Source: a virus
IMG/VR virus record: IMGVR_UViG_3300020281_000114
Coordinates: 1 to 25,664 of that record
DNA length: 25,664 bases
Direction: 5' to 3' (one strand)
The position numbers and the translations under genes were made by a program. Shown here piece after piece: positions 5,528 through 23,456 of the stretch (position 1 is its first letter; each line of letters begins with the position of its first letter). A model generated the notes under the pieces. That model was given only the letters and a program-made list of their open reading frames with translations, ran no database searches and was not told where the DNA came from.

Positions 5528-5887
5528 ATGTTTAAATCACTCTTGGCAGTAGCAGCAGTCTCTGCATTCTCAGCACCTGTAATGGCAGGTCCTTACGTCG
5601 GTATCGATACTAAATCAGTATTCACAGGTTCTGACTACACTTCAACCGAATTCACAGGTAAGATCGGTTACGAAGGTAGCGTTGGTACTACCAGTTATTT
5701 TGTAGAAGGTGGTCCTGTTACTCTTACTCCTGATAACGGAGAAGCAGATACAGAATTGTTCCTTGCAACAGGTGTAGGTTTCCCTATCTCAGATTCAATC
5801 GGTGCAAGTGCAGCATTCAAAGTAGAAACTAATGATGGTGCAGATGCAGAATACGAATTCACATCTGGATTGAAGTACTCCTTCTAA
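5528..5887 (+). CDS. Secreted small beta-barrel-like outer-membrane protein
   Basis: The 119-residue product starts with a classical Sec signal peptide (MFKSLLAVAAVSAFSAPVMA) with probable cleavage before GPYVG. The remaining ~99 residues are rich in alternating polar/hydrophobic segments with Gly, Thr and Tyr, and the protein ends in TSGLKYSF. A C-terminal Phe on an amphipathic strand is the known Bam-recognition signal of outer-membrane barrels. At this size it would be a very small barrel or a partial one that oligomerises. Similar short proteins with a signal peptide followed by GPYV occur in cyanophages, but their function is unknown. It is a stand-alone cassette with promoter, structured leader and strong terminator. 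No good Shine-Dalgarno is seen, only GAG 16 bases upstream. Confidence 0.75.
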   Translation: MFKSLLAVAAVSAFSAPVMAGPYVGIDTKSVFTGSDYTSTEFTGKIGYEGSVGTTSYFVEGGPVTLTPDNGEADTELFLATGVGFPISDSIGASAAFKVETNDGADAEYEFTSGLKYSF

Positions 5888-11971: not shown

Positions 11972-12886
11972 ATGTCATTTTCATCGCTTAAAAAGTCTAG
12001 CACCTCATCTATTTCTAACCTTACAAAAGAGTTGGACAAGATGACTAAGCAAGGCGGGGGCAAAGGTCCCGATGAGCGTCTTTGGAAACCAGAGGTAGAC
12101 AAAGCAGGAAACGGTTACGCAGTAATCAGATTCCTCCCTGCTCCTACAAAGGAAGAACTACCTTGGGCACAAGTCTTTTCTCACGCATTCCAGGGTCCTG
12201 GTGGTTGGTACATCGAGAACTCGTTGACTACTATTGGTCAGCAAGATCCAGTCGGTGACCTTAACCGCGTGCTCTGGAATTCTGGTTTAGACTCCGACAA
12301 AGACGTAGCACGCAAGCAAAAACGTAAGTTATCTTACTACTCAAACATCTATGTGATTAAAGATCCACTTCATCCAGAAAATGAGGGAAGAGTTTTCCTT
12401 TATAAGTATGGTAAGAAGATTCATGATAAGATTGCTGAGGCAATGAAACCTCAGTTCGAGGATGAAGAACCCATCAACCCATTCTGTTTCTGGAAGGGTG
12501 CTGACTTCAAATTGAAGATCGTTAAGCAAGATGGTTACTGGAACTATGATCGTTCTGAGTTTGCTTCTGTGGGAACACTTGGCAACTTTGATGACAGCAA
12601 ACTAGAAGAGATTTACAATCAGGAATATAGTCTCAAAGACTTTACTGATTCTAAGAACTTCAAGTCATACGAACAACTAGAAACAAGATTGAATCTTGTT
12701 CTTGGTAAAACAAGTCGTGCTGCTGTTATTGAAGATGAAGATGGTTTAGACTATGAAGATCAGATTACCCAACCAGTTGAAGAAGTGTCTACTCCTCCAA
12801 CACCAGGGTTCGGAAATGCTGTATCATCATTGAAAGAGGAGGAAGATCCTGATCTATCCTACTTCGCTAAACTAGCAGAAGAATAA
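11972..12886 (+). CDS. gp32: Single-stranded DNA-binding protein gp32
   Basis: The 304-residue protein aligns with T4 gp32: a basic N-terminal segment (MSFSSLKKSS) for cooperative binding, a core with KLSYYSNIYVIKDPLHPEN, GRVFLYKYGKKI and a WNYDRSEF region, and an acidic C-terminal tail (EEEDPDLSYFAKLAEE) for partner binding. It coats ssDNA in replication, recombination and repair. The zinc-binding Cys-Pro-Val-Cys of T4 is replaced by Asp92-Pro-Val-Gly95; the protein has one Cys in all. I place the start at 11972, after GGAG; the ATG at 11915 overlaps the leader hairpin and would add 19 unrelated residues. The stop overlaps the next start (TAATG). Confidence 0.93.
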   Translation: MSFSSLKKSSTSSISNLTKELDKMTKQGGGKGPDERLWKPEVDKAGNGYAVIRFLPAPTKEELPWAQVFSHAFQGPGGWYIENSLTTIGQQDPVGDLNRVLWNSGLDSDKDVARKQKRKLSYYSNIYVIKDPLHPENEGRVFLYKYGKKIHDKIAEAMKPQFEDEEPINPFCFWKGADFKLKIVKQDGYWNYDRSEFASVGTLGNFDDSKLEEIYNQEYSLKDFTDSKNFKSYEQLETRLNLVLGKTSRAAVIEDEDGLDYEDQITQPVEEVSTPPTPGFGNAVSSLKEEEDPDLSYFAKLAEE

Positions 12887-13200
12887 TGAAACTCATCTTG
12901 ACGGCACTTGCAACCTTAACATTCGCAACTCCTGCACAAGCATTAACTTGGAAAGAGTTTTGGGAACCATTTGTTGTTGATCACCATCATCATCATGGTC
13001 ATTATTATCATGGCGATGGTTGCGAACCGATCAAGTATGACTACCATAGGTGGGTATCTGGATACTGGAACGGTAGACGTTGGGTATCTGGATACTACCA
13101 TGTGGAGACAAGGACTAAGTATGTTGGGTGTCATCATGATCATCATGACCCAGTAGAGAATTGGTACCGAGATAATCCACAAAGATACTATCGACCCTAA
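12886..13200 (+). CDS. Secreted histidine-rich small protein
   Basis: The 104-residue product has a Sec signal peptide (MKLILTALATLTFATPAQA) and a short mature domain rich in His, Tyr and Trp. Two His clusters (DHHHHHGHYYHGDGC, about residues 32-46, and CHHDHHD, about residues 82-88), each next to a Cys, suggest metal binding, such as Zn, Cu, Ni or Fe. Between them an in-frame 30-bp tandem duplication gives WVSGYWNGRR then WVSGYYHVET. The likely location is the periplasm or outer membrane of the host. No family is recognised with certainty. It overlaps the gp32 stop by one base, so it may be made together with gp32. Confidence 0.7.
   Translation: MKLILTALATLTFATPAQALTWKEFWEPFVVDHHHHHGHYYHGDGCEPIKYDYHRWVSGYWNGRRWVSGYYHVETRTKYVGCHHDHHDPVENWYRDNPQRYYRP
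13051..13096 (+). repeat. Direct repeat of 16 bp with 30-bp period
   Basis: The 16-mer tgggtatctggatact occurs at 13051-13066 and 13081-13096. The period is exactly ten codons, giving two copies of Trp-Val-Ser-Gly-Tyr in the His-rich protein, which points to an in-frame tandem duplication. Confidence 0.85.
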
Positions 13201-13793: not shown

Positions 13794-14046
13794 ACCTACT
13801 GAAAACTACGAACAACTAATTCAACGCTTCACAAAGCGTACTATGCAACTTCGTGCTAGACAAGATGAACTACAAGGATGGTATGAAGAATATATTAAAA
13901 ACGAGAACGACTTGAAGAGACTAGAAGGTTCTATGCAAGCGATCGAATACGTTGCTTTCGGTAAAATGCCTGGTGATGGTAACCACGACAAATTTAAGGA
14001 TCATACTCCACAAGCGTATAAGGAGCAGATTCCAGAGAGATATTAA
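13786..14046 (+). CDS. Small hypothetical coiled-coil protein
   Basis: The 86-residue product starts at GTG 13786 with GGAG five bases upstream, overlapping the previous gene by eight bases. Residues 7-50 form a long charged helix (QLIQRFTKRTMQLRARQDEL), likely a coiled coil. The tail is unstructured. Its TAA stop shares three bases with the stop of the minus-strand gp53 (TTAA at 14043-14046). Function unknown. Confidence 0.65.
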   Translation: MTKPTENYEQLIQRFTKRTMQLRARQDELQGWYEEYIKNENDLKRLEGSMQAIEYVAFGKMPGDGNHDKFKDHTPQAYKEQIPERY

Positions 14047-15035
14047 TAACCTCCTCCATAGTATCCTCCTCCACCAGATGATCCAGAGGATCCACTGGAA
14101 CCAGAAGAGGATCCAGAAGAAGAACTAGAACTACTAGAAGACGATGAAGAAGATGATGTATTAGATGTGTCATCTGTTGATTGACTTGTTGTAGACGAAG
14201 CGTCCGTCGTTCCTGCAACGACACCACTAGAATTCACATTATCTGATGTTGACGTTATTGTAGAAGTGGTTGTAGCACCACTCTCAGTAGTAGTCGTAGT
14301 AACGGTCTTGTTAACCAATTCGATTGCAGAAGCAAATTCGATACTGGGGGCAAGACCGTATTCTGTTGTATATTCTTCTTTCTTCGTAATAAACACTTCT
14401 TTGATGATATTCGGTGTTATCTTAATTCCTGTTTCTGAGTCAATTTCTTGATTTGGAGCATATTTCATCAATTCTTCAAATTCGTCAATAAAGTCCTCAA
14501 TGAAAGTTGGTTTTAACAACCAAATATTCGATTTTGAGTCATTTATTGACTTTTCGTACTCATAGTTGGAAACTGGATATGTGGTATTTGCGACAACAGT
14601 GCCATCTGACCTTGTATAACCCCATTCCTGATTTACTTGGATTCCTTCCCTAATAAGCACTTTTCCTGTATCTAGGTCTTTAATTTCATTTGTTTCATAG
14701 TGATGAACACCGTTTGGTGACCCATATTTCCTAGATACCAATTCTTGCAGTTCATCTTCTGCTAAGGGCCAGTCTTCGTAAACATTGACTATATTATTAC
14801 ATAGCAACACTACCCAATCGTATGTGCTAGTGCCATATATGTTATATGCCACTCTATCGGGTCTTTCGTTGTTTCCAATGGTATACTGCTGGAATCCAAG
14901 AATGCTTTCCTGTACATCTTCAATAAGTTTGCATTTTCTGAATATATTTCGTGCAATAATGGAGGGTTCTACATTATTGGTAACAAATGTAGATACCCTA
15001 ACTCCGACTTTTGGTAGATAAGAAAAATATGCCAT
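14043..15035 (-). CDS. gp53: Baseplate wedge protein gp53 with Ser/Gly-rich tail
   Basis: The 330-residue protein has the T4 gp53 core in its first ~215 residues, including FRKCKLIEDVQESILGFQQY, RPDRVAYNIYGTSTYDWVVLL and YEDWPL, the LysM-like region that links wedges in the baseplate. T4 gp53 is 196 residues. The extra C-terminal ~100 residues are low complexity: Thr-rich, then a run of 14 Ser, then Ser/Gly repeats ending in GGGGYYGGGY. This tail is probably flexible and surface-exposed. The start overlaps the gp48 stop by one base (TAATG on the minus strand). Confidence 0.85.
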   Translation of the reverse strand: MAYFSYLPKVGVRVSTFVTNNVEPSIIARNIFRKCKLIEDVQESILGFQQYTIGNNERPDRVAYNIYGTSTYDWVVLLCNNIVNVYEDWPLAEDELQELVSRKYGSPNGVHHYETNEIKDLDTGKVLIREGIQVNQEWGYTRSDGTVVANTTYPVSNYEYEKSINDSKSNIWLLKPTFIEDFIDEFEELMKYAPNQEIDSETGIKITPNIIKEVFITKKEEYTTEYGLAPSIEFASAIELVNKTVTTTTTESGATTTSTITSTSDNVNSSGVVAGTTDASSTTSQSTDDTSNTSSSSSSSSSSSSSSGSSSGSSGSSGSSGGGGYYGGGY

Positions 15036-17719: not shown

Positions 17720-18421
17720 ATGCCATTACCTAAACTTGTTGTACCTGATTACGACTGTAAATTACCAGTCACAGGTAAAAAGGTGAACTTTCGACCATTC
17801 CTAGTAAAAGAGGAGAAACTTCTGTATCTCGCAATGGAGACTCAGAAAGAGAAAGAAATGATCAAAGCAGTCAAGAACATTTTGAAGTCTTGTACTGATT
17901 TGAAAAATGTAGATGATCTACCAACATTTGAACTAGAATACTTGTTCCTACAAATCAGATCCAAAGCAGTTGGAGAAGAGAGTGAGTTCAAAGTAGTATG
18001 TGAAGATGACGGTGAGACAGAAGTACAAGTAACTCTGGATTTGAATACCATTGAGGTAGAAGTACCAAAAGACCATAAAACTATCATCCCATTGAGTGAT
18101 GACATCAAGATTCAAATGAAATATCCTGCATTGGATGCGTTCGTGGATCGTAATATGATGGATAACCCAGATGTAGATGATGTATTTGCTCTCGCAGCAG
18201 ACTGTATTGATAAAGTATATGATGGTGATGAGATCTATGATTCTTTCACAGCGAAAGAAGCAAAAGACTTCATTGGTGAGATGAATAATGCACAGTTCGC
18301 TAAGATACAATCCTTCTTCGAGACTATGCCTAAGTTGTCGCATACCCTAGAAGTAACTAACCCTAAAACAAAAGTTGTTAATAAAGTGACGTTAGAGGGT
18401 CTCGCTGCTTTTTTCGGATAG
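17720..18421 (+). CDS. gp26: Baseplate hub protein gp26 (T4_baseplate family)
   Basis: The 233-residue protein matches T4 gp26-like hub proteins (208 residues in T4). Marks are YDCKLPVTGKKVNFRPFLVKEEKLLYLAMET near the N-terminus and KNILKSCTD. A central beta segment follows (FKVVCEDDGETEVQVTLDLN); in some relatives this part carries zinc-binding Cys. It was described in T4 as a baseplate-hub protein. Position before the tape-measure-like genes equals that of tail-assembly chaperones in other phages. Its last codons TTT TTC GGA TAG contain a -1 slippery heptamer leading into the next gene. It follows a perfect late promoter without a Shine-Dalgarno. Confidence 0.85.
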   Translation: MPLPKLVVPDYDCKLPVTGKKVNFRPFLVKEEKLLYLAMETQKEKEMIKAVKNILKSCTDLKNVDDLPTFELEYLFLQIRSKAVGEESEFKVVCEDDGETEVQVTLDLNTIEVEVPKDHKTIIPLSDDIKIQMKYPALDAFVDRNMMDNPDVDDVFALAADCIDKVYDGDEIYDSFTAKEAKDFIGEMNNAQFAKIQSFFETMPKLSHTLEVTNPKTKVVNKVTLEGLAAFFG

Positions 18422-18475
18422 CATTAATGCATGACAGTCTTATGAATCACTATAAGACAAACTTCGCATTAATGC
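18409..18475 (+). promoter_or_regulatory. Candidate programmed -1 ribosomal frameshift signal
   Basis: The heptamer T_TTT_TTC (18409-18415) is in the gp26 frame, two codons before its stop. After a 5-base spacer (GGATA), GCATTAATGC (18421-18430) pairs perfectly over 10 bp with an identical self-complementary copy at 18466-18475. Inside is a second stem GTCTTAT (18437-18443) with ATAAGAC (18452-18458). In the -1 frame the codons CGG ATA GCA TTA lead without a stop into the ATG at 18427. The product would be a fusion of about 299 residues. Confidence 0.7.
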
Positions 18476-18618
18476 AGCATCACAAGTATAGTTTGACTGA
18501 ATTAGATAATATGATCCCTTGGGAAAGGGACATCTATATCAACTTGCTTATTGCTCATTTGAAGGAAGAAGAAGAACGTATGGAGAGGCAGAAGAATAAG
18601 AACAAGACCACATTCTAA
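18427..18618 (+). CDS. gp51: gp51-like baseplate hub assembly protein, possibly a frameshift extension of gp26
   Basis: The 63-residue product (YKTNFALMQHHKYSLTELDNMIPWERDIYINLL) resembles the short cyanophage proteins named gp51; T4 gp51 is much longer (249 residues) and needed for hub assembly. The IPWERDIY motif is typical. The ATG has no Shine-Dalgarno and lies five bases after the gp26 stop, in the -1 frame relative to gp26 with the frame open across the junction. It may therefore be made mainly as the C-terminal part of a gp26-gp51 fusion, as in lambda G/GT tail chaperones. Its stop abuts the next start. Confidence 0.75.
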   Translation: MHDSLMNHYKTNFALMQHHKYSLTELDNMIPWERDIYINLLIAHLKEEEERMERQKNKNKTTF

Positions 18619-21162
18619 ATGTCAGCAGCACTAAGAGAATATATTAGTATTAAACCCCCTGGTGGCAGTTCCCCTCTGGTCAAATCCATGCGACCACTTA
18701 TTGTCAGTCAGAACAGGTTAGGTGGTGCTGTTACATATTTTGGTGAGATTGTACATGATCTAAAAGAGATCATGCAAGTACAGGCAGACTCATCCCAAGC
18801 ATTCTTAGAGAAAGAAAAAGAACTGGTAGAGAAGGAACATGAACATAAGTTAGATATAATTAAACCATTATCAGATCAAGAAGAGGTATTAGAAGAAGGG
18901 AAAGAACAGGATAAACAAGCAGAGAAAGATCAGGAGGGTGACGAGGAAGAACAGGGTGAGGAACTAGGTAAGAAATTAGCAAAGCAAGATAAAGAAAAGA
19001 AAGGTGTCCTTGAAAAGTTCTTACAGGGTGTCAGTAACCTATTGTCACCATTTGTTAGGATCTTTGGTGCAATGGTTGCATATAAGATCTTTGATTTTAT
19101 TTCAGATGAAGAAAATATAGAGAAAGTAAAGACAGTCCTAAAAGCAATAGGAGCGATTGGTAGGTTTGCACTCAAACTTGGGGAGTTTGGTGTCACCAAT
19201 GTAATGGAAGGTATTGGTAGAGTATTTGGTGATAACCCTGACAAAGAGGGGATGGGGAAAGTATTTGATAAGATGTTTGGCGTATTACAAATTATTGGTG
19301 GGTTAGCATCGTTCTACTTATTGAGTCGCACACTCATGCCATGGAAACTTATAAGTGATGTTGCGTTCATGACGTCTTTGGGTCGTACAGCAGCAGTCGC
19401 TAATGCTATGGGTTGCGGACCAAACAATAAGAAGTTTAGGAAGAATAGATTTAATAAGCAGATGCAGGGTGACTCAGGTAAGAAACTTCGTAAGAGATAT
19501 CAGAGAAGGTATGGTCCAGAAGCAGCAAAGAATAAATTTAAGAATAAGGTAAGGAACAATAGGTTCGCAAACTTTAAAAAAGATGCAAAGAACTTTATAA
19601 AGAACAGTAAGAAAACACTTACTAACGTAAAGAACGTTGCTGTAAGTAAAGGTAAGTCTCTAATAAAATCTACCATAGCATTTGGTAACAGGGTTGAAGC
19701 GGGTATAGGTAACTTCTTTGGTAGTGTTAGGAAAAGAGTGGGTAGTACCTTTAAAGGTGTTAAGAACTTTGCTAAGGATAAATTTACCTCAGCAATAAAA
19801 ACTGCTAAGAAATGGGGTAAAGGAGCATGGAACTGGGGTGCTAATCAAGCAAAGAATATAAAAGGACTTGCTGAACTTGTTAATAATCCTAAGAAATTAG
19901 GTGAAGTTGTAATGAAAAAAGTGAAAGAGGGTTTGATGCCGACTCTTAAAAAGAACAAGTATATTAAACAAGTGATGAAGTTGTCTAATCCTAAGACAGC
20001 ACTAAAATCGGCAAAGAACATTGCAAAGAGTGCAGTAAAAGGAGCATTTACGAACCCTGGATTTACATCTTTTAGGGACTTCTTAAAAGCAGCAAAGGCA
20101 AATGTAAAGATAGGTGGTATTGATGTAGCGATTGCAGCGATAATGGGACTCTTAGATTATGCTATGGGTGAGTCACCTATCAACGCACTTGTTAAAGCAA
20201 CTGGTGGTTTGTTGGGATATAGTGCTGGTTTCGCTATTGGTTCACCGTTTGGTGGTGTCCCTGGTTTTATTACAGGTGCACTGGGTGGTGTTGCTGGTGA
20301 TTTCTTGGCAAACAAACTGCTAGAAGGACTAGCAAAGACACCTGGGATTAAAGATGTACTCGCAAATGAGGATCCACTTGCTAACATGTTAGGCATGAAG
20401 AAGAGACCTCTACTTAGAGATCCATCAATACAAATGGACTTTGCATATGATTTAGAGAATAGTAGTAGCACCACCGAAGATGAAGAGACTGGTGATTTAG
20501 TCATGGAGACAGGTCCTTTTACTAGGGGTGATTTAGAAAGAAAGATCAAATTCACTCAGGATAGAATTGAAAAATTAAGAAATGGTGAAATACCTGATAA
20601 TGAAGATGGAAGAAAGTTAACTTTTGCTGAGAATAAACTTAAAATCTTAACTGATAATCTCAACAAGTTAGAGCAGAAGTCAGAGGGTGGTATTGTAAAA
20701 CCAAATCCTAATGTGGAGATAGGTCAGAGTATAGATGGTAAAGAGAAAGACGGTAATGTGTTTACTAGATCTTTCAATGGATTGATGGAAGGTGTGAAGA
20801 ATTTCGGTGACATGCTTGTTAAACCGAAGGAAAAGGTTGTTAAGGATGAAGAAGAGAAGACAGATGATGTAAAGGTAACAGCAAAGCAACCACCAAGTTT
20901 CAAAGATGTCTTTGCAGAACTAGGTGGTCCAGAGTATCTCTCTACTCTAATCAAGGATACAATCGATCCAGTACAGACTGATGCAATAAATACCAAGACA
21001 GAGCAACTTAAAACAATCTCAGAGGACAAAGTTAGACGTGATAAAGAAAATCTGACTGAAACTCAGATCATGGTAATGAGACAACAGATTAAGATTGGTG
21101 TTCCTATCGAGACTGAGGTCACTATTGACATCACCCCAGAAACTGACGCAATGATCGTATAA
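18619..21162 (+). CDS. Tape-measure-like tail/hub protein, paralogue 1
   Basis: The 847-residue protein has a likely coiled-coil, very charged region at residues ~45-130, a hydrophobic stretch with FVRIFGAMVAYKIFDFI (near 145), a long Lys/Asn-rich region at ~265-480, and a Gly/Ala-rich hydrophobic segment (GYSAGFAIGSPFGG ... GALGGVAGDFL, ~530-565). The C-terminal PPSFKDVFAELGGPEYLSTLI (near 757) recurs in the next protein. These features and its place after gp26/gp51 suggest a tape measure or hub core, the slot of T4 gp29 (590 residues). No enzymatic domain is visible. It shares one base with the next gene. Confidence 0.7.
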   Translation: MSAALREYISIKPPGGSSPLVKSMRPLIVSQNRLGGAVTYFGEIVHDLKEIMQVQADSSQAFLEKEKELVEKEHEHKLDIIKPLSDQEEVLEEGKEQDKQAEKDQEGDEEEQGEELGKKLAKQDKEKKGVLEKFLQGVSNLLSPFVRIFGAMVAYKIFDFISDEENIEKVKTVLKAIGAIGRFALKLGEFGVTNVMEGIGRVFGDNPDKEGMGKVFDKMFGVLQIIGGLASFYLLSRTLMPWKLISDVAFMTSLGRTAAVANAMGCGPNNKKFRKNRFNKQMQGDSGKKLRKRYQRRYGPEAAKNKFKNKVRNNRFANFKKDAKNFIKNSKKTLTNVKNVAVSKGKSLIKSTIAFGNRVEAGIGNFFGSVRKRVGSTFKGVKNFAKDKFTSAIKTAKKWGKGAWNWGANQAKNIKGLAELVNNPKKLGEVVMKKVKEGLMPTLKKNKYIKQVMKLSNPKTALKSAKNIAKSAVKGAFTNPGFTSFRDFLKAAKANVKIGGIDVAIAAIMGLLDYAMGESPINALVKATGGLLGYSAGFAIGSPFGGVPGFITGALGGVAGDFLANKLLEGLAKTPGIKDVLANEDPLANMLGMKKRPLLRDPSIQMDFAYDLENSSSTTEDEETGDLVMETGPFTRGDLERKIKFTQDRIEKLRNGEIPDNEDGRKLTFAENKLKILTDNLNKLEQKSEGGIVKPNPNVEIGQSIDGKEKDGNVFTRSFNGLMEGVKNFGDMLVKPKEKVVKDEEEKTDDVKVTAKQPPSFKDVFAELGGPEYLSTLIKDTIDPVQTDAINTKTEQLKTISEDKVRRDKENLTETQIMVMRQQIKIGVPIETEVTIDITPETDAMIV

Positions 21163-23456
21163 TGGCAAAAGCAAGACTGTACAAAATGGTTAACCCTGGT
21201 ACCATCAAGCGTGGTGGTATCACAGTCAAGGTTGGTGACAAGGTAGTCACTCAACCAACTATTAACTTCTCTAAAAATATTAGTGCGATTAATAGTTTAG
21301 GTGCTACTGTCAATAGTATTGCAGTTATTACAGAAGAATTAAAAGAGACATTCCAAGAGTATACTGTTGCAAATATGACAATGATGCAGGAGTTGATGGA
21401 AAAGAGAGAGGATAATATTGACAAAGAGAAGAAAGAGTTAAAGAAAATAAAGAATAAGAAGTTAGTAGATAAGGGTAAAAAGAAAGATAAGAAGTCAGAA
21501 GGACTTCAAGAAATGTTGAAGGGAACAATCAAGGCAAGCATACCCACTATTAAAGCAGTTGGTAAGGCAGGACTTGGTTTTATAACTGGTATTGCAGGAC
21601 TGTTTAATGATCTGATTGTTAAGGTCGTTGCATTCAATGTGTTTAAATGGATGTCAAATCCAGCAAATAAACAGAAGTTGAGAGAGACTATCAAAGGAAT
21701 AGGTCGTATATTCAAGTTCTTTATAAGTGTTGCTGGATTTATGGTAAACTTTGGTATTGGTGGACTTGTAGATTTCTTTGAGAGTCCTAATATTTTCAAG
21801 AAGATATTTGGTTTTGCTAAATTTATGGGTGTGTTGGGATTATTCTTTGCACCTATGGCAATGGCAAAATTGGGTATCTTCGGTGCCAAAGGTGTATATA
21901 CTCTATTCGCCAAGGGTGTACTATTCAAACTGTTGACGAGTCTCTTTAAAGGTATTGGTAGCATGGTTAAAGGATTGATTGGACTGGTAAAAGGTATGGG
22001 ATTGTGGGGTATGGTCGCTGCTGGTGGTCTATTGGTCACTGGTGCTCTTCTAATGAACCAAAATGATGGTGGTGAAGATGATCTCAATGAGGTAGATACA
22101 GAAGAAGTCACAACCACAGATTTGAGTTCGGGTCCAGGTGCTAACGCAACATATTATGATGACAAAGGAGAAGTAATTACTGACCTAGTAGAGATTGAAG
22201 AGGCAAGGCAAAAGGCATTGACCTTGGCAAATAAGAATAACCCAGAACTAACTGATGGTCCACCCAAGATGGCAAAGGGTGGTTGGATCAATGGTCCGAT
22301 GTCTGGATATCCTGTGTCATTGTCAGGTAAAAAGGTAGACTTCATTGGTCATGGTAAGGAGTATGTCGCTACACCAGAAAGGCGTGCTGGTGGTGGACCA
22401 CTTGGATCAGCATTTGTCATACCATATGACACACCAGCAACACGACAGAATCCAGGGTTGACTAATACCAGACTGTTGGAAGCAAAGTCTGCTGGATTTA
22501 ATGTGGCACCTATGGCAGCAGGAGGTCTTGTTGGTGCACTAGCAAACACATTGGGTCGTGGTGGAGATAAACCACCTTATAAGAAAATTAAATCAGAGTT
22601 AGGTGCAGATAAAAAGACTTGGGATACATTCCGAAGGACAATCGCTGAGATAGAATCAAGTGGTAAGTATGGAGTATTTGGTGGTAGTGGTGATTACTAT
22701 GATGGTAAGTATCAGTTAGGTGGTGCTGCAAAGACTGATGGTGCAAGGATTATGGGACTTTCTGACCCAGGGCATTCTGATAATCCATCAGACTTCAAAC
22801 GAAAACTATTCCGTAATAATAAGAAGTTGCAGGAATGGTTGTTCGCAGGATTTACTATTGCAAACCACAAGTATCTACAATCATCAAAAGCATATAAAGA
22901 CGCTGATCCACTCAGGAAATTACAGATCCTTGCATATGCACACAACCAAGGATGGGCGGGTGCTGCTAAGTGGGCAGAGACTGGTGAGGTAGGTGTAGAT
23001 GGTTTCGGTACAAAAGGAACCAAGTACACAGATGCAATCAAAGCATCGTTCACCGAAGCAAATCTAATACCAAAAGATGCACCAATTACAAATGATAAGG
23101 TTAGTGGGTCAACAGGGGATACTTCCTCAACAGAGGATGGACCAAAGAAACCACCAAACTTTGCAGATGTATTCAAAGAATTAGGTGGTGCAGAGTATCT
23201 TTCACAACTAATTGCAGACACCAAAGATACAGGTACAATGTTGAATAACAATGCACTGAATGAAGCAACTAAAACTGGTAATTCCAACATGGTAGTTGGT
23301 GACTTGAATCCTATTGATGCATCAGCAACAGGTGCAACACCAGCAAAACGTTTGTCTGGTGGTGGTCAGAAGTATGTGGTTCCTGCTAACGAATATATAA
23401 AACCGAGGTTTGGATTACTTGCTGCTATCGCACCCTCTCCCTTTGAAATATTATGA
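21162..23456 (+). CDS. Tape-measure-like protein, paralogue 2, with lytic-transglycosylase-like domain
   Basis: The 764-residue protein repeats the layout of its upstream neighbour: coiled coil (~65-120), hydrophobic VVAFNVFKWMSNPANKQK and membrane-like segments (~150-310). It then has KGGWINGPMSGYPVSLSGKK (near 372), a Gly-rich motif of phage tape-measure C-termini. Residues ~486-625 look like a soluble lytic transglycosylase or goose-lysozyme-type domain: IAEIESSGKYG with Glu498 before Ser as candidate catalytic acid, YDGKYQLG, and YAHNQGWAGAAKW. The C-terminal PPNFADVFKELGGAEYLSQLI (near 664) matches the paralogue. It could cut peptidoglycan during DNA entry, a job done in T4 by gp5 lysozyme. 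Confidence 0.75.
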   Translation: MAKARLYKMVNPGTIKRGGITVKVGDKVVTQPTINFSKNISAINSLGATVNSIAVITEELKETFQEYTVANMTMMQELMEKREDNIDKEKKELKKIKNKKLVDKGKKKDKKSEGLQEMLKGTIKASIPTIKAVGKAGLGFITGIAGLFNDLIVKVVAFNVFKWMSNPANKQKLRETIKGIGRIFKFFISVAGFMVNFGIGGLVDFFESPNIFKKIFGFAKFMGVLGLFFAPMAMAKLGIFGAKGVYTLFAKGVLFKLLTSLFKGIGSMVKGLIGLVKGMGLWGMVAAGGLLVTGALLMNQNDGGEDDLNEVDTEEVTTTDLSSGPGANATYYDDKGEVITDLVEIEEARQKALTLANKNNPELTDGPPKMAKGGWINGPMSGYPVSLSGKKVDFIGHGKEYVATPERRAGGGPLGSAFVIPYDTPATRQNPGLTNTRLLEAKSAGFNVAPMAAGGLVGALANTLGRGGDKPPYKKIKSELGADKKTWDTFRRTIAEIESSGKYGVFGGSGDYYDGKYQLGGAAKTDGARIMGLSDPGHSDNPSDFKRKLFRNNKKLQEWLFAGFTIANHKYLQSSKAYKDADPLRKLQILAYAHNQGWAGAAKWAETGEVGVDGFGTKGTKYTDAIKASFTEANLIPKDAPITNDKVSGSTGDTSSTEDGPKKPPNFADVFKELGGAEYLSQLIADTKDTGTMLNNNALNEATKTGNSNMVVGDLNPIDASATGATPAKRLSGGGQKYVVPANEYIKPRFGLLAAIAPSPFEIL

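Follow-up and report, generated by a model that had tools for sequence, protein, structure and literature searches.

A conserved candidate -1 frameshift signal at the end of gene 26 of a T4-like cyanophage, predicted to yield a tail-assembly chaperone in a short and a long form

According to our analysis of a T4-like cyanophage fragment from IMG/VR (IMGVR_UViG_3300020281_000114, positions 1 to 25,664, 25.7 kb, hereafter referred to as the window), a -1 frameshift near the 3' end of gene 26 very probably yields a short and a long form of a tail-assembly chaperone (TAC). In the proposed mechanism, gene 26 would be the tail-assembly chaperone gene of this phage, most ribosomes would end translation at its TAG codon (18419) to give a short form of 233 amino acids (aa), and a fraction of them would shift one base backwards on U_UUU_UUC and synthesize a 299-aa long form with an additional C-terminal part, the so-called gp51. 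The slip would be aided by a Shine-Dalgarno-like element, AGAGGG, 9 nucleotides (nt) upstream and by a hairpin 5 nt downstream. By analogy to gpG/gpGT of phage lambda, many short and few long copies would cover the tape measure protein and bring in the tail tube protein. What can be read directly from sequences is the signal together with its conservation, a -1 frame that is both open and conserved, and the natural fusion represented by T4 gp51; that slippage occurs, its efficiency, the roles of the stimulators and the chaperone function are what we infer from them. The nearest cultured relatives of the window, S-SZBM1, S-WAM1 and P-RSM6, are 69-73% identical to it in gp26.

The candidate slippery site and its conservation

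Gene 26 ends with the codons GCT TTT TTC GGA TAG, in which T_TTT_TTC, a heptamer of the canonical X_XXY_YYZ type, lies in the gp26 frame and is separated from the stop codon by one sense codon. The initial annotation, made from the nucleotide sequence of the window, had proposed an in-frame slippery heptamer near this stop, a 5-base spacer behind it and a fusion product of about 299 residues. All three were found: the spacer occupies positions 18416-18420, the -1 frame is open from 5' of the heptamer up to the TAA at 18616-18618, and the predicted fusion, in which the slip reads FFRIALMHDSL..., has 299 aa.

The 3' ends of gene 26 were taken from 174 loci of IMG/VR contigs, isolates and distant T4-like phages, including Sinorhizobium phiM12, Stenotrophomonas Ps15, Acidovorax ACP17, Aeromonas AS-szw, KVP40-type phi-pp2, Ochrobactrum ORM_20, Agrobacterium OLIVR5, Pseudoalteromonas XG4, and Pelagibacter HTVC008M. 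An in-frame T_TTT_TT[C/T/A] is present 7-16 nt 5' of the gp26 stop in 172 of these loci. The representatives used in the remaining comparisons, 82 in number, were dereplicated to <80% gp26 identity and picked from the 172 heptamer-bearing loci, so that the presence of the heptamer in 82/82 of them (73 TTTTTTC, 8 TTTTTTT and 1 TTTTTTA) reflects selection among heptamer carriers. Because the Phe-Phe pair is itself conserved, codon choice at other Phe-Phe pairs of the same genes served as the control. T_TTT_TTN is used at the site in 82/82 cases and at 1/89 of the other pairs (Fisher p = 5e-49), which sets the signal far from chance.

This comparison bears on the possibility that the T run arises by coincidence from two conserved Phe codons and that the hairpin downstream of it is a by-product of repeated ALMH/ALMQ coding. 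Phe-Phe is kept even in gp26 of T4 and of Pectobacterium phage PM2, where no shift is needed, and the two stem arms do encode ALMH and ALMQ; but neither accounts for the codon usage at the site, for a hairpin stronger than a residue-preserving null, or for a -1 frame that is open and conserved throughout. A chance origin of the heptamer was rejected on the comparison of the Phe-Phe pairs, and we give the coincidence explanation as a whole a virtually negligible probability. It might also be supposed that RNA polymerase slips on the T run, producing mRNAs with an extra base that are translated with no ribosomal slip. The site is indeed a T run, reaching 8 T's in six representatives, but it has exactly 6 T's in 74/82, which is short for transcriptional slippage and led us to reject this candidate. 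Polymerase slippage, which we consider highly improbable, would moreover need no codon phase, Shine-Dalgarno-like element or downstream hairpin.

The product of the -1 frame

In all loci examined, the -1 frame can be read from the heptamer into the gp51-like domain with no stop codon between the two genes, and conservation begins right at the slip site. The conserved product reads FFRIALxHxxLxxYYxxNFALMQHHKYSLTExENMxPWERDIYVxLL, and the part of this frame encoded at 18427-18615 of the window matches the T4 gp51 family profile phrog_634 (E=9e-29) and the C-terminus of phrog_150 (E=9e-6). The first ATG of the frame lies anywhere from codon 3 to codon 35, depending on the locus. In the 10 codons that follow the slip, 34/82 representatives have no ATG and 28/82 have no ATG, GTG or TTG, though the residues there are conserved. 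Start codons are thus unconserved, which makes a poor fit to an independent gp51 gene, and a separate gene with its own start was rejected for this reason. The gp51-like open reading frame (ORF) of the window had been described as lacking its own Shine-Dalgarno sequence, and consistently with this, neither a conserved start nor a conserved Shine-Dalgarno sequence was found in relatives. All three conditions under which the initial annotation would have been refuted, namely, stops in the -1 frame of relatives, an unconserved slippery site and a good Shine-Dalgarno sequence before gp51, turned out in favour of the frameshift. Rather than being a gene in its own right, the tiny gp51 of cyanophages is probably the C-terminal portion of a frameshift product. 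In public records, gp51 is given as a separate gene, is started late, or is left blank (unannotated in several records), and no joined coding sequence for gp26/gp51 was present among the annotated regions that we opened; many phage records thus appear to mis-annotate or miss the gp51 part.

A separate gp51 could alternatively be produced by termination and reinitiation (translational coupling) at the ATG at 18427, 5 nt past the gp26 stop. The TAG-CATTA-ATG arrangement in the window, the ATG found 5-8 codons past the slip site in many relatives, and the TAATG at the junction in Vibrio phage K362 are in agreement with such coupling, but the representatives that have no start codon near the slip site despite conserved residues are not. 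Reinitiation would also leave unexplained the difference between the heptamer site and other Phe-Phe pairs, the phase of the heptamer and its fixed spacing to the Shine-Dalgarno-like element, as well as the fact that T4 gp51 is a full fusion. We regard reinitiation as improbable and favour the -1 frameshift.

Elements upstream and downstream of the heptamer

The distance between the end of the Shine-Dalgarno-like pentamer and the heptamer is 9 nt in 56/82 and 8 nt in 16/82 representatives (72/82 in total). At the conserved Leu-Glu-Gly encoded by this element, GAG is used in 50/69 cases, as compared to 595/1874 (32%) elsewhere (p=1e-11), and the mean anti-Shine-Dalgarno pairing is -6.9 kcal/mol vs. 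-0.8 kcal/mol in the gene body. Since the spacing of the element is fixed relative to the heptamer but not relative to any ATG, we argue that it acts on the shift, as its probable stimulator. The spacing described for Shine-Dalgarno stimulators of -1 shifts is 9-14 nt (review PMC5009743).

Downstream of the spacer, two copies of the palindrome GCATTAATGC pair as the perfect 10-bp outer stem that the initial annotation had pointed out, while the inner stem, assigned there 7 bp, folds as 8 pairs (seven Watson-Crick and one G-U). The predicted minimum free energy of this stem-loop is -21.4 kcal/mol (z = -4.1 vs. dinucleotide shuffles, 0/200 of which were as stable; z = -3.3 vs. a codon-preserving null). 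For the whole family, 63 nt after the 5-nt spacer were folded against a null that preserves the encoded -1 residues, and the mean z was -1.99 (p <= 0.05 in 55% of the 82 representatives) vs. -0.41 in the gp26 body. The sequences of the hairpins vary by lineage, e.g., GCCCTC..GAGGGC or AGTATGGCTCA..TGAGTCATACT. A single hairpin common to the whole family was rejected, as the GCATTAATGC stem is confined to a close clade and others fold differently or weakly. Within the clade of the window, 87% of cells are paired in the named structure vs. 29-45% when it is slid, and double changes occur in five pairs. This covariation gives moderate support to the stem, the sequences being closely related; other lineages have different hairpins or none detectable.

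Table 1. Features of the gene 26 region of the window
Feature	Position	Strand	Basis or remarks
Gene 26, predicted short chaperone form (TAC-N), 233 aa	17720-18421	+	PF12322, phrog_150, AlphaFold2 model
Shine-Dalgarno-like AGAGGG, probable stimulator	18394-18399	+	ends 9 nt 5' of heptamer
Slippery heptamer T_TTT_TTC	18409-18415	+	in gp26 frame, conserved in relatives
-1 frame extension (TAC-C), 67 codons + stop	18415-18618	+	phrog_634, phrog_150 C-terminus
Zero-frame stop TAG of gp26	18419-18421	+	
Stem-loop, outer 10-bp stem 18421-18430/18466-18475, inner 8-bp stem 18437-18444/18451-18458	18421-18475	+	
ORF usually annotated as separate gp51, 63 aa	18427-18618	+	start position varies or is often absent in relatives
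Next gene, 847 aa	18619-21162	+	phrog_167 tape measure E=2e-4 (weak); phrog_790 'endolysin' E=1.5e-28

Separate short and long genes in T4 and PM2

The T4 gp51 protein (249 aa) matches PF12322 with its residues 1-201 and phrog_150 over nearly its full length. The C-terminus of T4 gp51 belongs with phrog_634, to which the short cyanophage ORF is assigned; T4 gp26 has the first part only. A hidden Markov model (HMM) built solely from frameshift fusions of cyanophage-like loci aligns to T4 gp51 at HMM positions 24-283, spanning the junction (E = 7e-10), with SFFRIAL.. of the fusion (SFFRIALLHEDLENYYKLNF) opposite DVFKLL.. of T4 gp51. The C-terminal HMM alone matches residues 208-244 of T4 gp51 and 207-246 of PM2 gp51. 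Since T4 gp51 aligns across the junction, T4 has the short (26) and the long (51) form as two separate genes, which are divergently oriented, and T4 gp51 is, as judged from these alignments, a natural in-frame fusion. The initial annotation was right that 26 and 51 are separate genes in T4, but the counterpart of T4 gene 51 is the entire long form and not just the short ORF. The T4-type arrangement of separate genes is present also in PM2. In most of the other T4-like phages examined, a single gene appears to give rise to both forms.

We lean slightly towards a broader reading, in which the ratio of chaperone forms in most T4-like phages other than the T-evens (cyanophages, pelagiphage, Vibrio KVP40-type, Aeromonas, Stenotrophomonas, and rhizobial phages) would be set by a conserved cassette of a Shine-Dalgarno-like element, T_TTT_TTN and a changing hairpin, working in very different hosts, and in which T-evens would have replaced this cassette by gene duplication, with one copy short (26) and one fused (51). 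Phe-Phe codons stand at the ends of gene 26 in T4 (GAG TTC TTT GAG; locus L081, 4303-4929) and in PM2 (GAG TTT TTT AAA; locus L098, 1471-2100); they are possibly relics of an ancestral slippery site.

Chaperone function and neighbouring genes

The gp26 protein of the window matches PF12322 over residues 9-232, i.e., as a whole protein (E=4e-70), and phrog_150 (E=1e-76). In its AlphaFold2 model (pLDDT 85.7), the N-domain (1-94) has as top structural matches 3fgx, 2ob9, and 3klu (Z 6.8-7.6) and 5ir0 (Z 4.7), the next, unrelated, match being at Z 2.1. The 2ob9 structure is, by its title, the HK97 tail assembly chaperone, and 3fgx and 3klu we take to be of prophage origin. A search of solved structures by sequence with the gp26 profile gave no relevant match, and a Foldseek search of the gp26 model against PDB gave no significant one. 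The N-domain match, inconclusive alone, is in line with the assembly-chaperone role reported for T4 gp26 and gp51 (PMC3004832). The proposal that gp26 and gp51 are a tail-assembly chaperone pair, made in the initial annotation, gains support from this likeness to solved chaperones and from the T4 gp51 fusion.

Several observations weigh against the frameshift and the chaperone function. The structural matches of the gp26 N-domain are all under Z 8, below the level taken as safe. About one third of the representatives have no clear local hairpin. The ATG located 5 nt after the TAG in the window is such that reinitiation could add some free gp51. The heptamer is absent from two loci, those of PM2 and of Vibrio K362. 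In the latter, gp26 ends with CTT TTC AAG TAA TGG, with TAATG as a stop/start overlap, and the -1 frame is still open, with a similar LMPW motif; reinitiation or another slip may operate there, possibly after a switch from frameshifting to reinitiation. In this region of the phage (locus L096, 2040-2260), the -1 frame contains the gp51-like motif NSLMPWHLMSLVDI.

The gene that follows the -1 frame extension (Table 1) bears the label endolysin in some relatives. HTVC008M and phiM12 have a tape-measure-like gene two genes downstream. Two successive large genes of the window (18619-23456; 847 and 764 aa) share PHROG families 790, 1200, 2588 and 17500 and resemble tandem paralogues; PHROGs label them as endolysin, and the tape-measure match is weak. 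Elsewhere in the window, a short protein encoded at 12886-13200 begins like a signal peptide, is very rich in His in its middle part (DHHHHHGHYYHGDG), and is perhaps an exported metal-binding protein. A 119-aa protein encoded at 5528-5887, directly 5' of a glutaredoxin-like gene, has a signal-peptide-like start and a sequence of alternating beta type that resembles a small outer-membrane barrel protein. A 330-aa protein encoded at 14043-15035 (- strand) has a long Ser/Gly-rich low-complexity C-terminal tail (SSSSSSSSSGSSSGSSGSSGSSGGGGYYGGGY).

Comparison with known systems

Vladimirov and colleagues reportedly found frameshifting to be conserved in several T4-like groups, with T4 using genes 26 and 51. 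The inference of a frameshift chaperone in the initial annotation is correct and supported by our results but not new, as the core idea, that of a frameshift chaperone in T4-like phages, is already published (Vladimirov, Gautam & Davidson 2022, Virology 566:9-15). Papers citing that work state that the TAC-N genes of T4-like phages contain poly-T slippery sites (PMC12846349) and that some of these phages carry a short copy along with a fused long one (PMC10885494). As far as it is presented there, the system is the same in the 26/51 gene family, the poly-T slippery site and the separate short and fused long genes of T4, and differs in that the one studied here comes from an uncultivated cyanophage contig. 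Relative to the account in the citing papers, our analysis adds breadth, statistics, the Shine-Dalgarno-like element and the turnover of hairpins. The Shine-Dalgarno-like element is a testable addition. The results also connect marine T4-like phages with the way in which lambda-type phages generally assemble their tails, and offer a natural comparison of frameshifting and gene duplication as means of fixing a protein ratio.

The gp26 protein differs from lambda gpG, which has about 140 aa, in its PF12322 family and its larger size (233 aa). The frameshift site of phage P2 is also of T_TTT_TT- type. The G/GT proteins of lambda and E/E+E' of P2 are frameshift chaperones (Xu, Hendrix & Duda 2004), to which gp26 and its fusion with gp51 would be analogous. 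The -1 cassettes of Escherichia coli dnaX and of insertion sequence (IS) elements comprise the same three parts, namely, a Shine-Dalgarno-like sequence about 9-14 nt upstream, a heptamer and a downstream hairpin (PMC5009743). They differ from the candidate cassette of gene 26 in the heptamer (A_AAA_AAG vs. U_UUU_UUC) and in residing in an unrelated gene; in addition, the shift in dnaX leads to a shorter product, whereas that in gene 26 would lead to a longer one.
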